This document shows positions 23,528 to 59,086 of a stretch of DNA of 59,416 nt, piece after piece (position 1 is the stretch's first letter; every line of letters starts with the position of its first letter). Where the stretch lies: the NCBI GenBank assembly GCA_040756435.1, contig JBFLZD010000018.1, positions 1 through 59,416 on the forward strand, written 5' to 3'. The notes under the pieces are model-generated. The model saw only the letters and a list, made by a program, of their open reading frames with translations, was not told the DNA's origin and ran no database searches. The translations under genes were made by a program, and so were the position numbers. The stretch is from Spirochaetota bacterium. Lineage in GTDB: Bacteria; Spirochaetota; UBA4802; UB4802.

Positions 23528-25205
23528 TATATATCTTTAAACCAAGCTTATTCTGCTCGTCAATTATTTCTTGCAATATTGCTGGAGTGGTTAAAGGATT
23601 TATGGTGATAGCCCTGAGAACTACAATTCGCTGATCGCGATAGCGTGTTGACTCCAGCATGGTTCGAGAAACAAAGCTGTTATCTTCCTGACGGATTGCA
23701 CGGTGAAGCTCTATGGTCATTTCATTGATAATATCATTTAGCTTTTTTAGGCGCCTGCGCAATTTTGCTGCTTTCTCTTCATCTGCAGTTTGGATTGCAC
23801 TCATTATGCGCTCAAGTTTTATCCGTATACTCTGTGGTACAAACCTATAGTTAGTGATAAATAATTCCGGATTATTGAGCAACTCAAAGTTTTCATGCTT
23901 TATAATGAGTTCTTTCAAGGTATTAGTAAGCATGAATGCATGTTCAAAGAGCACCTCAAAACCTGCCGTGCCAAATATCTTAAGCGTTACCCAGGGCTTT
24001 AAGCATGAAAATGGTCGTGAACCTTCCACAGTAAACCTTCCCTGGTCAACTGAATCCGGGCGAATAATGTAATTGGATGTATGCATAATGTTGGTAAGGT
24101 CATAGGGATTTTTAAACAAAATCAGTCCCATGGACAACGGTGAATACAATAGCTTGTGGGCATCAAATGTAACCGAATCAGCCTTTTCTATCCCTTTGAA
24201 TAAATCGCGGTATTTGTTAACCAGAAGTACTGATCCACCCCACGCCGCATCAACATGGAAGAAGATATTGTATTCATCAGCAATTTTTCTTAAAGTATAC
24301 AGGTCATCTATATTGCCTGTCTCAGTTGTGCCAGCAATGCCAATCAATGCAATGACTTTGATTGCATCAGCATGGGTGCTGTTATACTCAGCTATTGCTT
24401 TTAACTCACGTCGCAATGCATTAATATCTATCTTATTATTGCTATCAACTGGTATTTTAATTACGTTATTGTCACCAATGCCGGTAATACGAGCAACCTT
24501 ATCAATTGAATAATGACCACGCTGCGAAACTATATATACTGCTTTGTGTATATGATAATACCTGAATGCTTCAGCCACACCTGCTTTGCGTATGCCAGGA
24601 AAACGTTCATCAGCAGGGAACGCTTTGTTGCGTGCCACAAGCATTGCGGTAAGGTTTGCCAGTGTGCCATCAAGGGTTACATTTCCCAGTGCAATCCTGT
24701 GATTCTGAATATTTCGTTTATAAAATGACGCTGGCTTTTGAAAAATAAGCCTGTGTATCCAGGAAATAAATTCGCGCTCTACAAATGTTGACGCTTTTGC
24801 TGTTTCTATCTTTACCTGGTTTTGATTGAGTGCAGCAATGATCATCTCAAGCAAAATCATAAAATAGGGAATAGCACTTGTCATGTGCCCAATGTAATAA
24901 GGATTGCCAACCTTCACCGAGTGTTTGATAACCTTTTGTTTAATTTCAAGAAGTATATCTTTTAAAAGCTTTGGATCACGGGGAATATCAATATTATTAA
25001 ACAAGCATGCCAGTTCCGGTAATGATATCTCACTGTGAATACCACCCTTTTCCTTGAAAAAAGAATGGATAAGGTCAAGAAGCTCATACCCAAACTGCAT
25101 AAACTTATCAGGTGAATCGGGCATGATGAATAGCTTGCGCAGATGCTCTAAATCGGTGGGTATCTTACCAGGAGTATGATCTATTGTGGGCTCAGCCAAT
25201 CTCAT
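23496..25205 (-). CDS. PLP-dependent decarboxylase, PanP-like
   Basis: A 569-aa group II PLP decarboxylase. Conserved pieces are SPxFIGHMTSA-like YYIGHMTSAIPYF, ALGNVTLDGTLANLTA, GIAGTTETGNID, FHVDAAWGGS and DSVTFDAHKLLYSP, whose Lys (near residue 350) would form the Schiff base. The layout and the C-terminal NPLTTPAILQEII are close to the PanP group, an aspartate 1-decarboxylase that makes beta-alanine for coenzyme A; glutamate decarboxylase-like activity is the alternative. ATG 25205 was preferred to an in-frame GTG at 25217. No ribosome site is obvious for either. Confidence 0.82.
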   Translation of the reverse strand: MRLAEPTIDHTPGKIPTDLEHLRKLFIMPDSPDKFMQFGYELLDLIHSFFKEKGGIHSEISLPELACLFNNIDIPRDPKLLKDILLEIKQKVIKHSVKVGNPYYIGHMTSAIPYFMILLEMIIAALNQNQVKIETAKASTFVEREFISWIHRLIFQKPASFYKRNIQNHRIALGNVTLDGTLANLTAMLVARNKAFPADERFPGIRKAGVAEAFRYYHIHKAVYIVSQRGHYSIDKVARITGIGDNNVIKIPVDSNNKIDINALRRELKAIAEYNSTHADAIKVIALIGIAGTTETGNIDDLYTLRKIADEYNIFFHVDAAWGGSVLLVNKYRDLFKGIEKADSVTFDAHKLLYSPLSMGLILFKNPYDLTNIMHTSNYIIRPDSVDQGRFTVEGSRPFSCLKPWVTLKIFGTAGFEVLFEHAFMLTNTLKELIIKHENFELLNNPELFITNYRFVPQSIRIKLERIMSAIQTADEEKAAKLRRRLKKLNDIINEMTIELHRAIRQEDNSFVSRTMLESTRYRDQRIVVLRAITINPLTTPAILQEIIDEQNKLGLKIYNDFKNRLSRV

Positions 25206-25416: not shown

Positions 25417-25830
25417 GGCTCTGACCCCATTACAATAGTATCACCCCTTCGGGGTTTATAGTGTGGGTGTCATCCTGAACCATGTCCTGAATTTATTTCA
25501 GTAATGATTCAGTGCGGTCATCCTGATCATGATTCAGGAACTCATTAGCGGGAACAAGAGATTCCGGGTTAAGTCCGGAAGGACGTATAGGCAACAAGTC
25601 ATCCTGAAGCATGTCCTGAATTTATTTCAGGATTGATTCAGGATCTACTCATAATGCTCTGACCCCAAATCCCACTATCTCTCCAATAACTCAGCGTACT
25701 CTGCGTGATACATTACTTTATCTCTAGAGTCTAGGCTCTGACCCCTTACAATAATATCACCCCTTCGGGGTTTGCATGATGTTGTGATAACGTTGTGAAG
25801 ATAGTATGCTCTGACCCCATGGTTTCACAA
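25417..25830. repeat. Repeat cluster with GCTCTGACCCC words upstream of a RAYT gene
   Basis: The 749-base gap 25206-25954 is mostly repeats. GCTCTGACCCC occurs at 25418, 25656, 25735 and 25808. Two of the copies head a longer shared unit (25417-25457 and 25734-25773) that ends in ACCCCTTCGGGGTTT, a hairpin. A separate 32-base direct repeat (TCATCCTGAA-CATGTCCTGA...) stands at 25470-25501 and 25599-25630. These are likely REP-like substrates of the adjacent transposase. A truncated copy of the word occurs inside that gene (26361) and a variant at 59188. Confidence 0.75.
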
Positions 25831-26551: not shown

Positions 26552-26860
26552 AGCTATAAAAAATAAAAAATTATATATTTGGTCAAGTTAGTTTTTGGAC
26601 ATATCAAGTATAACAGAAATTTTAAACGCTTTCTATTACGCGGGCTTGATAAAGTGAAAATTGAATCCGGTATACATTCTTCAATAATCAATTTATTAAT
26701 CTGTTCGTTTTTTAAGCTTTCATGACCAACAATTTTACTCTTTTGTAGGTTTATTGTGCACAATAACCAATTGGTGAGTTTTTTAAATTCTCTCTTGACG
26801 AAGATACAATCTATAATTATGACAGTGATATACATTTTATTTTACAGGAGAATACCTACA
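26552..26860. other. Intergenic region before the Fe-S assembly genes
   Basis: 309 AT-rich bases. TTGACG (26795-26800) and TATAAT (26812-26817) are present but only 11 bases apart, too close for a normal promoter. An AGGAG ribosome site (26847-26851) serves the next gene. A 93-codon antisense frame here has no supporting features. Confidence 0.35.
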
Positions 26861-33942: not shown

Positions 33943-34470
33943 TTAACCAGTCTTTACTATAAGATTTTTAACCTTTTGAACAATCATATCAGGCAAAATG
34001 TCTCTATTTTCCATTGTTACCTCATGGATTTCAATATCATCACGCTGCTTTATTGACTTAATGAATTCATCCCCACCTAACGTTATGGTGCCAATAACAA
34101 TATTTGTGCTATCAAGTGCTTTGATTGCTATATCTTTAAAGGTTTCTGAAAAGCATTCCATCTTGCCAATTTCGTCCAGTATAATAATTGTATTACTGTG
34201 TGGAATGATTGATGGAACAGCAATTGTATCAATATTATGGATATCCACACCATACCGCCGTATGTGATATGGTGATACAATATTCTGATGTGCTAAATAA
34301 CCTTTTTTGCCATCCAATGTATGCAACACAAAGCCAGTGCGCCTGCCTTCTACTCTTTCTTCTTCAGTGTAAAATCCATTAGCGTGATATGGCAGCATTG
34401 CTATAATCTTTTTTATTACAGTAGTTTTACCTGATGACGGCGCACCGGTTAAAAATATATTTTTCTTCAT
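33943..34470 (-). CDS. THEP1-family nucleoside-triphosphatase
   Basis: A 175-aa P-loop NTPase. Walker A GAPSSGKTT is at residues 8-16, Walker B IIILDEIGKMECFS near 95, and GFYTEEERVEGRRTGF is the family's conserved loop. THEP1 enzymes hydrolyse NTPs with broad specificity; the physiological role is not clear. It stands alone on the minus strand, 33 bases left of the first hairpin element. Confidence 0.88.
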   Translation of the reverse strand: MKKNIFLTGAPSSGKTTVIKKIIAMLPYHANGFYTEEERVEGRRTGFVLHTLDGKKGYLAHQNIVSPYHIRRYGVDIHNIDTIAVPSIIPHSNTIIILDEIGKMECFSETFKDIAIKALDSTNIVIGTITLGGDEFIKSIKQRDDIEIHEVTMENRDILPDMIVQKVKNLIVKTG

Positions 34471-34502
34471 AATATTTATATAAAATATTATTGTTTCAAC
34501 AA

Positions 34503-34619
34503 TAATAATTCCTTAAAAAATATCATAATGAAAATAGTATATACCCCTGCCGCCTTCGGCGGCGGAGGTGTATACTATTTTATATTTTGTTCAAATTTCC
34601 ACATTTTAGGAATAATTAA
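34503..34619. mobile_element. MITE-like hairpin element, copy 1
   Basis: About 117 bp bounded by AATAATTCCT (left) and AGGAATAATT (right), an imperfect terminal inverted repeat. The middle is a strong stem: AGTATATACCCCTGCCGCC, loop TTCGGC, then GGCGGAGGTGTATACT. It matches the element at 37835-37949 in reverse orientation over nearly the whole length (TTTTATATTTTGTTCAA and the ends are shared). It encodes nothing. It may also act as a bidirectional terminator. Confidence 0.75.
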
Positions 34620-34845
34620 TGTTGTTTCAATGTATTATTCATCTATGCATGATGACAGGCTTTATTAATTTGACAGGAATTACTGTTACAAAAAATATAC
34701 TTACAACTATTTAACAGGAGTAAATATATTGTGTCAAGATATTTGTAAATAGCTTGTAATGATATAATTGCAATCAGATTATATTAATTATCATCAATTA
34801 AAAACTAAAAAAGACAATTATACATTTATGGTTAGGAGGAATGAT

Positions 34846-35772
34846 ATGGTAGAACGATATGAATTCGCAGGGGAATCATTTATAAAAAAAGCTGATGGCA
34901 GGATAGTAATATATTCAAATCCTGATGATGGAGAAATAAACAGGATTGCTCTTGAGTATGGCATAGATATACATTCGCTCTATTCTGCTCTTGATACTGA
35001 AGAACTATCACGATTTGAAATTGAAAAAGATTATATGGTTTTGATCTGGAAAATACCTACTTCCATGAAAATCAATGAACTTTCATCACTTAATGTTATT
35101 ACTATAGGTTTTTTTATAAAAGATGACACTATTGTAGTAATAAGCCCAGAAACGCTTCCCTATATAACCGAAAAAGTTCACAATTCTATTGAATATCATT
35201 TTGATGTGCTGTTCCACTTTCAGCATTATACCATTAAACATTTTACCGAACATCTTAAAATTATTAAAATGATTTCAAAGGAAATCCAAAACAAGATCAA
35301 CAAGTCCATTGAAACAAAACATCTGGTGCAGATGTTTAATCTTAGTGAAAAGCTCATATACTACCTTCATGCTATAGAAAGCAATATTAGCTCGCTGGTA
35401 AAATTACGGTCTTACCTTAAAGATAATGTAAATACAATTAATTTTGATTTCTTAAACGATATTATTATTGACCATCAGCAAGCAAAAAAACAGGCCGAAA
35501 TTTATACAGAAATCTTTGCGGGACTTATGGACGCTCGCGCAAGCATTGTAAATAACAACATGAATATTCTTATTAAAAATCTAACAAAGATAAATGTTAT
35601 TTTTCTGCCATTAAACTTAATAGCAGGGATTTTTGGAATGTCAGAATTTTCCATGATAACACAGGAGGTGCCCTGGTATATTTCATATGGCTTTTTTGGA
35701 ATTACAATATTATGTGCTGGTATAATGTTAAGCTTTTTACTTAATAAATATGATGAACGGTGGAGACGATAA
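34846..35772 (+). CDS. corA: CorA-like divalent-cation transporter
   Basis: A 308-aa protein with an N-terminal cytosolic alpha/beta domain, a long helix pair (about 115-240) and two C-terminal TM helices (INVIFLPLNLIAGIFGMSEF and WYISYGFFGITILCAGIMLS). The loop between them reads F-G-M-S, where CorA transporters have Y-G-M-N, so the ion-selectivity Asn is replaced by Ser. The start at 34846 follows AGGAGG at 34834-34839. Probably an Mg2+ or other divalent-metal channel with altered selectivity (inference). It lies between the two inverted hairpin elements and overlaps or abuts dus. Confidence 0.85.
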   Translation: MVERYEFAGESFIKKADGRIVIYSNPDDGEINRIALEYGIDIHSLYSALDTEELSRFEIEKDYMVLIWKIPTSMKINELSSLNVITIGFFIKDDTIVVISPETLPYITEKVHNSIEYHFDVLFHFQHYTIKHFTEHLKIIKMISKEIQNKINKSIETKHLVQMFNLSEKLIYYLHAIESNISSLVKLRSYLKDNVNTINFDFLNDIIIDHQQAKKQAEIYTEIFAGLMDARASIVNNNMNILIKNLTKINVIFLPLNLIAGIFGMSEFSMITQEVPWYISYGFFGITILCAGIMLSFLLNKYDERWRR

Positions 35773-35786
35773 AATTAAATATCACC

Positions 35787-36773
35787 ATGCATATCATAAA
35801 AATTAATGGCATTAAGTACACATTTCACCTTGCACCCATGGCAGAGCTTACCACTCCAGCGCTGCGTAATGTTGTCAAAAATTTTACTGGTAACGTTGTC
35901 CTGTATTCTGAGATGTTAGCAAGTGGTGCTATAAATGCAAAGGCACCCCATAACGAGCCACTTGTGAAACGCTATAATTTTGACACACCTTTTTTTTATC
36001 AGTTAGTAGGAAATAACCCTGCAATTATGGCCAACGCTGCTGCTATTTTGCAAGACTATGGATGTGATGGTATTAACATAAACATGGCCTGCTCTGCACC
36101 ACATATTCTTAAAACGGGCGCAGGTGCTGGCCTTCTTTGCAATTTTGACCTGGCAAAAGCAATTATTGCTGCTTGCAGAAAAAACGTTCACGGCCTTCTT
36201 ACCGTTAAGATGCGTGCTGGCTTTCATGATATTGATTTGCCATTTTTACAGCAGTTTGTTACTATGCTGAAGAATGAAGGAGTTGATGCTGTCATTATTC
36301 ACCCACGTGCCGCAAAATGGGGTTTTACCCGTAAAGCTCGCTGGGATATTATTGAGGCGATAGTAACTGCTATAAATATCCCTGTCATTGGGAATGGTGA
36401 TATCTTTGAACCAGCACAAGCCTTGCAGTGTTTACAACAAACCCATTGTGATGGTATCATGATTGGTAGAGCAGCAGTACAGAAACCATGGATATTTGCA
36501 CAGTGTGATGCTTTATTGCAGCAACAGTCGCTGTCACTATCGCTTAACATTGAAGAAATATGGATAGAAGTTTTACAAAACATACAAAAAATGCTTCCGC
36601 AGAGGCTTCATAAAAGCAGGGCACACCGATTTTGTGCATATTATCACAAAAATGTTACATTTGGGCACACCCTGTTTTCATCAATACGGCAATGCAACGA
36701 AATAAATGATATGATTGTACTTATAAAGAATTATTTTCAACGAAATGAGGAAGAAAGAATAAAAATAGTATAA
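35787..36773 (+). CDS. dus: tRNA-dihydrouridine synthase
   Basis: A 328-aa FMN-dependent TIM-barrel enzyme that reduces uridine in tRNA. APMAELTTPALR (near 20) is the FMN-binding start, GCDGININMACSAP (near 90) holds the catalytic Cys, KMRAGF and HPRAAKWGFTRKARW follow, and GNGDI / DGIMIGRAA are the phosphate-binding loops. ATG 35787 is preferred; an in-frame GTG at 35760 overlaps the corA end. The gene ends three bases before the stop of the convergent Rpn nuclease gene. Confidence 0.9.
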   Translation: MHIIKINGIKYTFHLAPMAELTTPALRNVVKNFTGNVVLYSEMLASGAINAKAPHNEPLVKRYNFDTPFFYQLVGNNPAIMANAAAILQDYGCDGININMACSAPHILKTGAGAGLLCNFDLAKAIIAACRKNVHGLLTVKMRAGFHDIDLPFLQQFVTMLKNEGVDAVIIHPRAAKWGFTRKARWDIIEAIVTAINIPVIGNGDIFEPAQALQCLQQTHCDGIMIGRAAVQKPWIFAQCDALLQQQSLSLSLNIEEIWIEVLQNIQKMLPQRLHKSRAHRFCAYYHKNVTFGHTLFSSIRQCNEINDMIVLIKNYFQRNEEERIKIV

Positions 36774-36776
36774 TGG

Positions 36777-37748
36777 TTATTTATTTTTTAGCTCTTCCAG
36801 TTGTGCCTTAGTTAATTTAGTTATCTTTATAATTGTTTTATCATCGATTCCACTTTTCAATAAATTACGTGCAATAGTAATCCTTTCCTCATGTTTTCCT
36901 ATCAACTTACCTTTTTGAATTCCTTTTTGAATTCCTTTCTCAATCCCTTTATTAAATCCTTCTTTTATTAAATCTGATTTTATCTTTTTTAATGTTTGTG
37001 CTAACATTGAAGTTGCCTCCTGAGGAGTATTTACAAAATTTCCCGGTATCTTCTGGTCACTGTCTACTATACCATGCGATTGCAAATAATGTAATAACCA
37101 ATATAACAATGTGCGTATAAGCAAAAATTCGCCTTTCTCTGTATAAATTTGCACCAAATCCTTAATTCTGTCAATAGTTTTATAAAATATTGCATCATCA
37201 CCTGTTTCTAATAGAAATACAGTAGCTATCACATTCATCATTTGTTGAAGTATTTCTGGATTGAGTTCATTTTCAATGACTGGATAATATCTGAACTTAG
37301 GAACATATGGTAAACATTCATGCAATATCTCTGGAATATCAATCAAATCTTCAAGTGCAAATGGTGCATTCCATACTTTATCACCATTATATATCATAAC
37401 TGGAAATACAACAGGCAATTTTTTAGCATTGTGATGATATAGTAATTCCCTGTATAATTCTACAATATATTGTAACATCCTAAATGCTATGAATTTATCC
37501 ACAGTAGATTGGAATTCAATTAAAAGATAGATATACATATCAGTATTTCTAAAACGCAATTTATAGATAATATCTGCTTCATATTCTTTATAGTGATCAT
37601 TTACATACGTTTTATCAATTGTTTCAGCTTGCGTAAAATCAATTTCTTTAACCCAATCCATATGGACAAATGATTCTAACAATTCTTTTACCATTAATGG
37701 ATTAGAAAATAAATACTTATACCCTTTATCATGAATATTTTCAGCCAT
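36777..37748 (-). CDS. Rpn-family recombination-promoting nuclease
   Basis: A 323-aa PD-(D/E)XK nuclease of the Rpn / transposase_31 group. YKEYEADIIYKLRF and YIYLLIEFQSTVD (near 77) give the D...ExQ-type active site of the family, and PVVFPVMIYNGDKVW is its usual middle motif. The tail is a short in-frame tandem repeat (KGIEKGIQKGIQKGK), encoded by repeated TTTTTGAATTCC, which invites copy-number slippage. It starts 86 bases from the second hairpin element. Rpn proteins promote RecA-independent gene transfer, and some act in defence. Confidence 0.88.
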   Translation of the reverse strand: MAENIHDKGYKYLFSNPLMVKELLESFVHMDWVKEIDFTQAETIDKTYVNDHYKEYEADIIYKLRFRNTDMYIYLLIEFQSTVDKFIAFRMLQYIVELYRELLYHHNAKKLPVVFPVMIYNGDKVWNAPFALEDLIDIPEILHECLPYVPKFRYYPVIENELNPEILQQMMNVIATVFLLETGDDAIFYKTIDRIKDLVQIYTEKGEFLLIRTLLYWLLHYLQSHGIVDSDQKIPGNFVNTPQEATSMLAQTLKKIKSDLIKEGFNKGIEKGIQKGIQKGKLIGKHEERITIARNLLKSGIDDKTIIKITKLTKAQLEELKNK

Positions 37749-37834
37749 AGATACCTCATGGTAAAAATCTATTGTGTTTATACATTAATACGCTTGAGAA
37801 TGAAAAATTTGAAAAATTATGTTAAAAATTTTCA

Positions 37835-37949
37835 TTAATTATTCCTAAATGTTGAAAATTGAACAAAATATAAAATAGTGTACACCCCGCCGCCTTCGGA
37901 GGCGGGGGTGTACACTTTATTCTTTATGAAATTTTTTTAGGAATTATTA
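37835..37949. mobile_element. MITE-like hairpin element, copy 2 (inverted)
   Basis: About 115 bp from AATTATTCCTAAA to TTTAGGAATTATT, again with a GC-rich stem (TAGTGTACACCCCGCCGCC, loop, then GGCGGGGGTGTACACT). Read backwards it aligns with the copy at 34503-34619. The stem bases vary between copies in compensating pairs (tatataccc/ggtgtata here tgtacaccc/gggtgtaca), which suggests that the structure is kept. It and copy 1 bracket corA, dus and the Rpn gene. Confidence 0.75.
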
Positions 37950-38097
37950 CTGAAAAATTTTTGAGTTTTTTTAATGAATCCTTACAATAGTTATAAGCAT
38001 TAAATCAGATAAAACAATGGCGTGATAACCTGACTATAATGTTCATAAATTTACTTTGTATCAACAAACATAGTACTACTTTAAAATTTTAGTATTC

Positions 38098-38994
38098 ATG
38101 AGCTATCCATCATACATAGCATTATACGAACAAGGGGAGCTTCTCAAACGCATTGAAGCATTGAACACTATTGTTACCCACTGTACTCTCTGCCCTCATG
38201 AGTGCAAAGTTGACAGGCGTTCTGCAACCGGTAAATGCAAAACTGGCATGCAAGCACTGGTAGCATCATACCATGCACACTTTGGGGAAGAATCATGCCT
38301 GGTTGGTAAATACGGCTCAGGTACAATCTTTTTTGCCAACTGTAACCTTGCCTGCATATTCTGTCAAAACTGGGATATATCACAAATGCCTAATGGCCGC
38401 AACGTTACTCCCAAAGAAATGGCTGATATGATGATACGGTTGCAGCAAAAGGGCTGCCACAATATAAATTTTGTAAGCCCCACCCATGTGGTCCATGCAA
38501 TTGTTCAGGCACTTCCCTTTGCCATTGAACGCGGCCTAAGTATTCCTCTGGTATACAATTCAGGTGGATATGATTCATTTGAAACATTACAATTGTTAGA
38601 TGGTATATTTGATATTTACATGCCCGATTTCAAATATATGGACGCTGCTGTAGCAATGGAATTAAGCGGTGCAAGAGATTATCCGCAAAAAGCTATTACC
38701 GCCCTCAGGGAGATGCATCGCCAGGTTGGTGACCTTGTCATTGAAAAGGGCATTGCAAAAAGAGGTTTGTTAGTGCGTCATTTAGTCATGCCGGAGAACA
38801 TTGTCCGCAGTGATCTTGTATTTAAAGAACTATCTGCTATATCACCTCACACGTATGTAAATATTATGGCGCAGTACCACCCTGAATACAGGGCACATAC
38901 CCATAAAAGCCTGGGAAGGCGCATTACCATACAGGAATTTGATCAGGCTTATGTGTGGGCTAAACAAGCAGGATTATATAGATTTGATAGATAA
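38098..38994 (+). CDS. Radical SAM protein, PflA-like
   Basis: A 298-aa radical SAM enzyme of the group annotated as putative pyruvate formate-lyase activating enzyme (COG1313-like). An N-terminal Cys cluster (CTLCPHECKVDR and GKCKTG) precedes the SAM motif CNLACIFCQNW (near residue 82), and NSGGYDSFETLQLL / YMPDFKYMD are typical of the group. The substrate is unknown. No Shine-Dalgarno precedes ATG 38098, so a leaderless or weakly initiated message is possible. Confidence 0.88.
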   Translation: MSYPSYIALYEQGELLKRIEALNTIVTHCTLCPHECKVDRRSATGKCKTGMQALVASYHAHFGEESCLVGKYGSGTIFFANCNLACIFCQNWDISQMPNGRNVTPKEMADMMIRLQQKGCHNINFVSPTHVVHAIVQALPFAIERGLSIPLVYNSGGYDSFETLQLLDGIFDIYMPDFKYMDAAVAMELSGARDYPQKAITALREMHRQVGDLVIEKGIAKRGLLVRHLVMPENIVRSDLVFKELSAISPHTYVNIMAQYHPEYRAHTHKSLGRRITIQEFDQAYVWAKQAGLYRFDR

Positions 38995-39006
38995 CGATAT
39001 TTTTTA

Positions 39007-58196: not shown

Positions 58197-58440
58197 TCTT
58201 TACTATAAAGGTTATATCCCCATTCGCGTTTATTCGCGTTCATTGGCGGTTTTTCCTTGATCCGCTAATACACGCGAATGCACACTAATAAATTTTTTAT
58301 CCATTTTTTCGCGTTTATTAGCGTTCATTAGCGGATCCTGCGCATTTAAGTTAGCGTTCATTCGCGGTTTCTGCCCTTTCAAATCTGCGTTCATTCGTGG
58401 TTATTCGCAAATACACGCGAATCCACGCCAATAGTCCAAT
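58197..58440. repeat. Degenerate repeats CGTTCATTGGCGG / ACGCGAATGCAC (left block)
   Basis: The stretch is built of variants of GCGTTCATTCGCGG, ACGCGAATGCACACTAATAAA and TTTTTATCCATTTTTTCGCG, in a unit of about 65 bases. It covers the 3' end of the GxxExxY gene. The same units recur in 58826-58985 in the same orientation, so gene and repeats form one module. Confidence 0.8.
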
Positions 58441-58828
58441 GAGTAAAAGCCATTCGTTTCCACTCCAGTTTCGGTGCGCCGAAATTAAACAACACACCTA
58501 CAGGCTTTTCGGTTGCTTTTAAATAATTTAATAGTTGCGCTTCATCAAGTGTTGTCAATTGTTTTTCAGCTTTGATTTCAACAATAATCTGATCAAAGCA
58601 GATAAAATCTGGAAAATATTTCTTTGCCAGAGTTTGACCTTTATAGTAAATCTCTACTGGGGGTTGCGATTGGAAAGGTATTCTGCGCAGCGCAAATTCA
58701 ATCTCCAAAGCTGCCTGATACACAGCCTCCAAGAAGCCTGCTCCCAATTCATTGCTCACTTCCATTGCCGCCCCGACAATAGCATACACCTCGTCCTTAA
58801 AGAGTAATTCGTGTTTATTAGCGTTCAT
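58391..58828 (-). CDS. GxxExxY protein
   Basis: A 145-aa member of the GxxExxY family (PD-(D/E)XK-like). The name motif is seen as GAGFLEAVYQAAL (residues 29-41), and YFPDFICFDQIIVEIKAEKQL (near 70-90) carries the D...ExK nuclease-like residues. The first codons (MNANKHELL) and the last (DSRVFANNHE) are themselves made of the flanking repeat. The family occurs by the dozen in some anaerobe and uncultured genomes with the same type of repeat; its function is unknown. Confidence 0.9.
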   Translation of the reverse strand: MNANKHELLFKDEVYAIVGAAMEVSNELGAGFLEAVYQAALEIEFALRRIPFQSQPPVEIYYKGQTLAKKYFPDFICFDQIIVEIKAEKQLTTLDEAQLLNYLKATEKPVGVLFNFGAPKLEWKRMAFTHWTIGVDSRVFANNHE

Positions 58829-58985
58829 TGGCGGTTTTTCCTTTATCCACTAATGCACGCGAATGCACACTAATAAATTTTTATCCATTTTTTCGCTTTT
58901 ATTCGCGTTCATTCGCGGTTTCTCCTTTTTCCACTAATGCAAGCGAATGCACGCCAATAAAATTTTTGTCTTTTAATTTGCGTTC
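58826..58985. repeat. Degenerate repeats (right block)
   Basis: Two near copies of the ~65-base unit found in the left block: CGTTCATTGGCGGTTTTTCC ... ACGCGAATGCACACTAATAAA at about 58826-58895, then CGTTCATTCGCGGTTTCTCC ... GCGAATGCACGCCAATAAAA to about 58962. They interrupt or abut the methylase stub to the right. Confidence 0.8.
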
Positions 58986-59086
58986 ATTTGCTTAACCAGG
59001 TCATGTATGGCATTGACAATGTGTTTGGGAGTCAACACCTCACCAAAGTTATCTACACGCTGTTTTGATTGTAAATATGCTTTCAT
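58973..59086 (-). pseudogene. N-terminal stub of an N6-adenine methylase-like gene
   Basis: A 37-codon frame with K-Q-R-V-D-N-F-G-E-V-L-T-P-K and IVNAIHDLVKQ. This resembles the opening of DNA methylases that read RVADHGEVFTPxWIVxxMLDLVK and then continue to the SAM motif. Here the frame stops after MNAN within the repeat block. The remainder seems lost. Alternatively a chance frame, but 20 positions agree with the pattern. Confidence 0.55.

Follow-up and report, generated by a model that had tools for sequence, protein, structure and literature searches.

Two GC-rich hairpins of about 120 bp face each other in the genome of a Spirochaetota bacterium, on either side of a 3.2-kb block carrying corA, dus and an Rpn/YhgA-like gene. 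Do they bound a mobile unit, belong to a family of small transposons, or act through their stems? The original prediction hesitated between a composite element and a MITE family, and read the covarying stem as a sign of RNA or cruciform function. We are highly confident that the hairpins are independent insertions of a ~120-bp MITE, a non-autonomous DNA transposon most likely moved by a DDE transposase of the IS4 family (NF033592 / transpos_IS4_1 type). The window referred to throughout is the whole stretch of DNA analysed, 59,416 nucleotides, which is contig 18 of a 3.61-Mb genome in 126 contigs.

Results

The window contains two copies of the MITE in opposite orientation, some 3.2 kb apart, with the following features:

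33943-34470, minus strand: NTPase_1 gene (PF03266), left of copy 1 and outside the element
34491-34499: left target-site duplication of copy 1, TTGTTTCAA, 9 bp
34500-34621, plus strand: MITE copy 1, 122 bp, terminal inverted repeats CAATAATAATTCCTTA / CATTAATTATTCCTAA
34531-34581: central palindromic stem of copy 1, loop TTC
34622-34630: right target-site duplication of copy 1, TTGTTTCAA, 9 bp
34846-35772, plus strand: corA (PF01544), outside the element, syntenic in relatives
35787-36773, plus strand: dus (PF01207), outside the element, syntenic in relatives
36777-37748, minus strand: Rpn/YhgA-like gene (PF04754 'Transposase_31'), outside the element, syntenic in relatives
37824-37832: left target-site duplication of copy 2, AAAAATTTT, 9 bp, single at the empty site in G001
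37833-37952, minus strand: MITE copy 2, 120 bp, orientation opposite to copy 1
37872-37921: central palindromic stem of copy 2
37953-37961: right target-site duplication of copy 2, AAAAATTTT, 9 bp

These boundaries lie within 3 bp of those first proposed for the pair (34503-37949), and alignment bears out its description as two inverted copies with common ends, a TTTTATATTTTGTTCAA segment and a GC-rich stem. Compared column by column, and including the flanks, the copies are 86% identical. In each of them the imperfect terminal inverted repeats (CANNAATWATTCCTWA) open with CA and close with TG, and the two also share near-identical subterminal arms around the 20-bp central stem. A single long stem can form in both (RNA folding z-scores, -6.1 to -7.7). 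Elsewhere in the window, 25426-25773 and 58220-59000 hold short direct repeats (TCACCCCTTCGGGGTTT; GTCATCCTGAA..CATGTCCTGAATTTATTTCAG) and tandem TTCGCGTTCATTCGCGG-type repeats.

A search of the same genome with copy 1 returned 169 candidates, among which 40 alignable copies were scored at 81-94% identity, which excludes a chance origin of the window pair. The end motif, allowing up to two mismatches, occurs 594 times (302+292) in the genome against 288 (146+142) for a reversed control; from this excess of about 300 ends we estimate some 150 elements. The family therefore extends well beyond the window, and the outcome that would have refuted the original prediction, just two copies in fully conserved surroundings, did not arise. 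Its short class, present in many copies, measures 113-122 bp and has no coding capacity. As far as our searches of the open-licence literature reached, the family is new for this lineage; it is an ordinary MITE family, if a well-documented one, with an unusual probable part as a landing pad for IS1182-type elements. Near several repeats (in the flanks of L222, L213, L086 and L105) a short motif, GCGATAGTTACTG / CAGTAACTATCGC, recurs and is possibly a further palindromic repeat family.

Stem covariation

The arms of the stem do vary together, as was first noticed. Across 33 aligned copies, six of the 20 stem pairs are changed on both sides, and ten compensatory cells were counted against 2.4 in shuffles (a count reached in 0 of 500), a test that is inflated by the relatedness of the copies. 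These changes, the position of many copies between divergent genes and the presence of a central GC stem in sister MITE families of the order would suit a stem under selection for a regulatory role, whether as RNA or as a cruciform, for instance at the flanking divergent promoters. We nonetheless regard this as improbable. The share of paired stem cells, 92.4%, is only slightly above the 90.7% of shuffles, and private mismatches are accordingly frequent. The window gave no match in an Rfam scan. Furthermore, read in the same element orientation, the loop is GAA in 18 copies and TTC in 9, and is thus inverted in 9 of the 27 scorable copies. Loop inversion together with perfect correction of the arms is the product of template switching at palindromes, and covariation alone is therefore no proof of RNA function. 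We infer that template switching underlies both the inverted loops and the matched arms. The covariation is modest and RNA function is not required to explain it; the functional reading originally placed on it is not demonstrated by covariation with a pairing excess this small, in a stem whose loop is turned around in about one third of copies.

Gene neighbourhood

Plain bidirectional intrinsic terminators, a still weaker proposition than a selected RNA, could account for a strong stem (z-scores of -6 to -8) with T-rich flanks, and one copy does match a terminator scan. With gene pairs assigned by a simple ORF caller, however, divergent genes flank 20 of 34 copies and tandem genes 13, with a single copy between convergent genes, against a small baseline of 2230 divergent, 3451 tandem and 676 convergent intergenic bases in the window. 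This avoidance of convergent pairs argues against plain terminators, which also do not come with terminal inverted repeats, target duplications or empty sites. We consider the terminator explanation very unlikely; the distribution fits insertion of a MITE into AT-rich DNA.

Target duplications and empty sites

In 46 of the 51 elements whose two ends could both be recognised, the 9-mers on either side match at 8-9 of 9 positions, and 38 of these are perfect. When left and right flanks are drawn from different copies, only 27 of 2550 combinations (1%) agree as well. The signal is confined to 9 bp, with no duplication seen at lengths of 7, 8, 10 or 11. Because the choice of some ends took the duplication into account, 46 of 51 is slightly optimistic, by a margin that the effect far exceeds. 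The count leaves out L116 and some truncated copies, certain of which, L116 included, carry no duplication. L116 itself (L116:2432-2521; G000:C35, ~24431-24520) is a MITE copy that lacks the GC stem tip, retains TAGTGTACACTA only and has no matching 9-bp duplication.

Both window copies follow the rule, each with a perfect repeat of its own (TTGTTTCAA around copy 1, AAAAATTTT around copy 2), and must therefore represent two separate insertions rather than the ends of a composite transposon. Comparison with relatives leads to the same view. The corA-dus-rpn block, rpn included, is found in the same order in G001 and G004, both of the same genus. In G001, sequence equivalent to window positions 34844-37832 runs straight into the equivalent of 37953-38995, the two overlapping by 9 bases; copy 2 is missing, and AAAAATTTT occurs once, an exact empty site. 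The copy 1 site in G001 is too diverged to be called empty or filled. Of five further loci tested, four are continuous and element-free in G001, and the fifth contains unrelated extra DNA.

The inverted orientation, the 3.2-kb spacing and an enclosed gene matching PF04754 'Transposase_31' are what might be expected of a composite transposon in which the pair bounds a unit carrying corA, dus and rpn. Such a unit would show matching repeats on its outer sides only. Here each copy has its own duplication, the block is not absent as a unit but syntenic without copy 2, and some 150 copies are spread across the genome. The composite half of the original alternative is thus rejected, and it is the MITE half, with its inverted repeats, 9-bp duplications, copy number, empty sites and candidate IS4-type parent, that stands.

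A candidate IS4-type parent

A PF01609 / DDE_Tnp_1 profile search of the host genome gave no match, and the parent was therefore sought in relatives. The order-mate Spirochaetes bacterium RBG_16_49_21 (G023) carries a complete 1,232-bp IS4-family insertion sequence with ends CACTGTTAATTCCTAAA / CACTATTAATTCCTTAA, a perfect 9-bp duplication (AAATTAATT) and a transposase of 371 aa that scores 163 bits against NF033592 (cut-off 115). The terminal repeats of this autonomous element (L128) are like those of the MITE at about 14 of 17 positions. Closer to the host, a transposase gene in same-genus G004 is 57% identical to that of the G023 element and ends in CACCATTAATTCCTTAA, and a deletion derivative in the same genome (L169) begins with CACTAATTATTCCTAAA, the left end of the MITE over 17 nt. 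Three genomes (G003, G036 and G023) contain MITEs with the same type of end and length of duplication around different interiors, and more distant NF033592-type elements in the phylum also combine CA...TG ends with 9-bp duplications.

The match between parent and MITE is limited to the ends, with subterminal sequence beyond the first ~17 nt differing, and only one copy of an intact element with both ends of the close type was seen. In the host genome itself our search for an intact parent found only a broken transposase piece with two stops (C47:3954-4136), beside an end-like TACTGTTAATTCCTTAA, which suggests that the parent is probably dead here. An intact parent is not strictly required of a MITE, and parents are often lost. 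An IS4-type match near an end-like motif in G019 (L137) formed no bracketed element and was set aside. In G275, two insertion sequences (L235 and L242) have exchanged 9-bp flanks, the left of one equalling the right of the other, which suggests recombination or rearrangement between the two copies.

An origin as a REP/REPIN-type element moved by a Y1 (RAYT/IS200-like) transposase, to which a high-copy extragenic palindrome might otherwise point, has a negligible chance of being correct given terminal inverted repeats and 9-bp duplications, as expected of DDE transposons, and an IS4-type parent with matching ends.

A second element nested in the palindrome

Longer members of the MITE family, of 256-306 bp, form another size class. 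They keep the ends, arms and 9-bp duplications, but in place of the stem tip they carry an unrelated insert bounded by GGGGGTGTCCC / GGGACACCCCC or GACGGCCCC. Among 29 sampled copies of this insert, 14 adjoin both MITE ends, 6 adjoin one and 9 lie elsewhere; about 20 of 29 thus sit in the MITE palindrome although the MITE makes up only ~0.5% of the genome. Most nested copies leave ~8-11 nt of each stem arm on both sides, with the stem tip missing. Several contigs start or stop inside longer versions of the insert that encode fragments matching IS1182-family transposase (30-43 bits against NF033551; fragments only, no full gene being assembled), a position expected of contig breaks if identical copies broke the assembly.

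Host-genome copies of this ~270-bp class (L084-L094, L106, L113, L117-L119, L121 and L122) have had their MITE stem tip replaced by a short element of IS1182 type that carries CATTGCGAGGAACGAAGTGACGAAGCAATC repeats. The window itself contains a decayed C-terminal fragment of an IS1182-type transposase at 26591-26695 (NF033551, E=5e-4).

Discussion

We are now able to propose how the two hairpins arose. An IS4-family DDE transposase would recognise the CANNAATWATTCCTWA ends, excise the MITE and insert it into AT-rich DNA between genes, with a 9-bp duplication of the target. Mobilisation in trans is deduced from sequence, with no intact parent found in the host genome, and the enzyme responsible is probably now extinct in this strain. 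The observations beneath this model are the terminal inverted repeats, the 9-bp duplications, the high copy number, the empty sites in a relative, the insertion sequence of the order-mate, and the decayed transposase copies in the genus and in the host genome. The GC-rich stem would be a passenger palindrome, its arms kept matched mostly by copying from a palindromic master and by template-switch correction, a process that would also flip the loop. The same stem may serve as the target at which IS1182-type elements replace the stem tip.

The family resembles other bacterial IS4-family MITEs (NF033592, PF01609) in being non-coding, ~120 bp long, bounded by terminal inverted repeats and a 9-bp duplication, high-copy and intergenic, and in having ends that match an order-mate IS4-type element and decayed copies in the genus. 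It differs in its central GC-rich palindrome, which is not seen in the candidate parent, and in the lack of an intact parent in the genome.

The nested element has its nearest parallel in IS1272 of Staphylococcus aureus, for which insertion by replacement of an inverted repeat has been reported (PMC5678879). As there, the element nested in the ~270-bp class, which has a probable IS1182-type relative (NF033551), targets an inverted repeat and takes the place of its tip, with no target duplication in evidence. Unlike IS1272, many insertions here share a single target, a repeated palindrome that comes from a different mobile element, and most of the copies are themselves short non-coding derivatives. 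Insertion sequences of the IS3, IS110, IS4, IS256 and IS5 families are known to target REP palindromes (PMC1525189), which likewise offer a high-copy intergenic landing site; in this case the element is of IS1182 type, its target palindrome belongs to a transposon, and the tip of the stem does not survive the insertion.

What first looked like a mobile block is thereby settled as two ordinary MITE insertions, and the family to which they belong is tied to a group of IS4-type transposases with 9-bp duplications in spirochaetes. We think it likely, with less confidence than for the MITE itself, that an unrelated IS1182-type family uses this palindrome as its principal landing site, cutting out and replacing the stem tip, so that one parasite spreads on another, away from genes, and that inverted-repeat replacement is general to IS1182-type elements rather than a peculiarity of IS1272. 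The nested insertions provide dozens of natural cases whose target palindrome can be read from sister copies, and lend themselves well to tests of inverted-repeat-replacing transposition.
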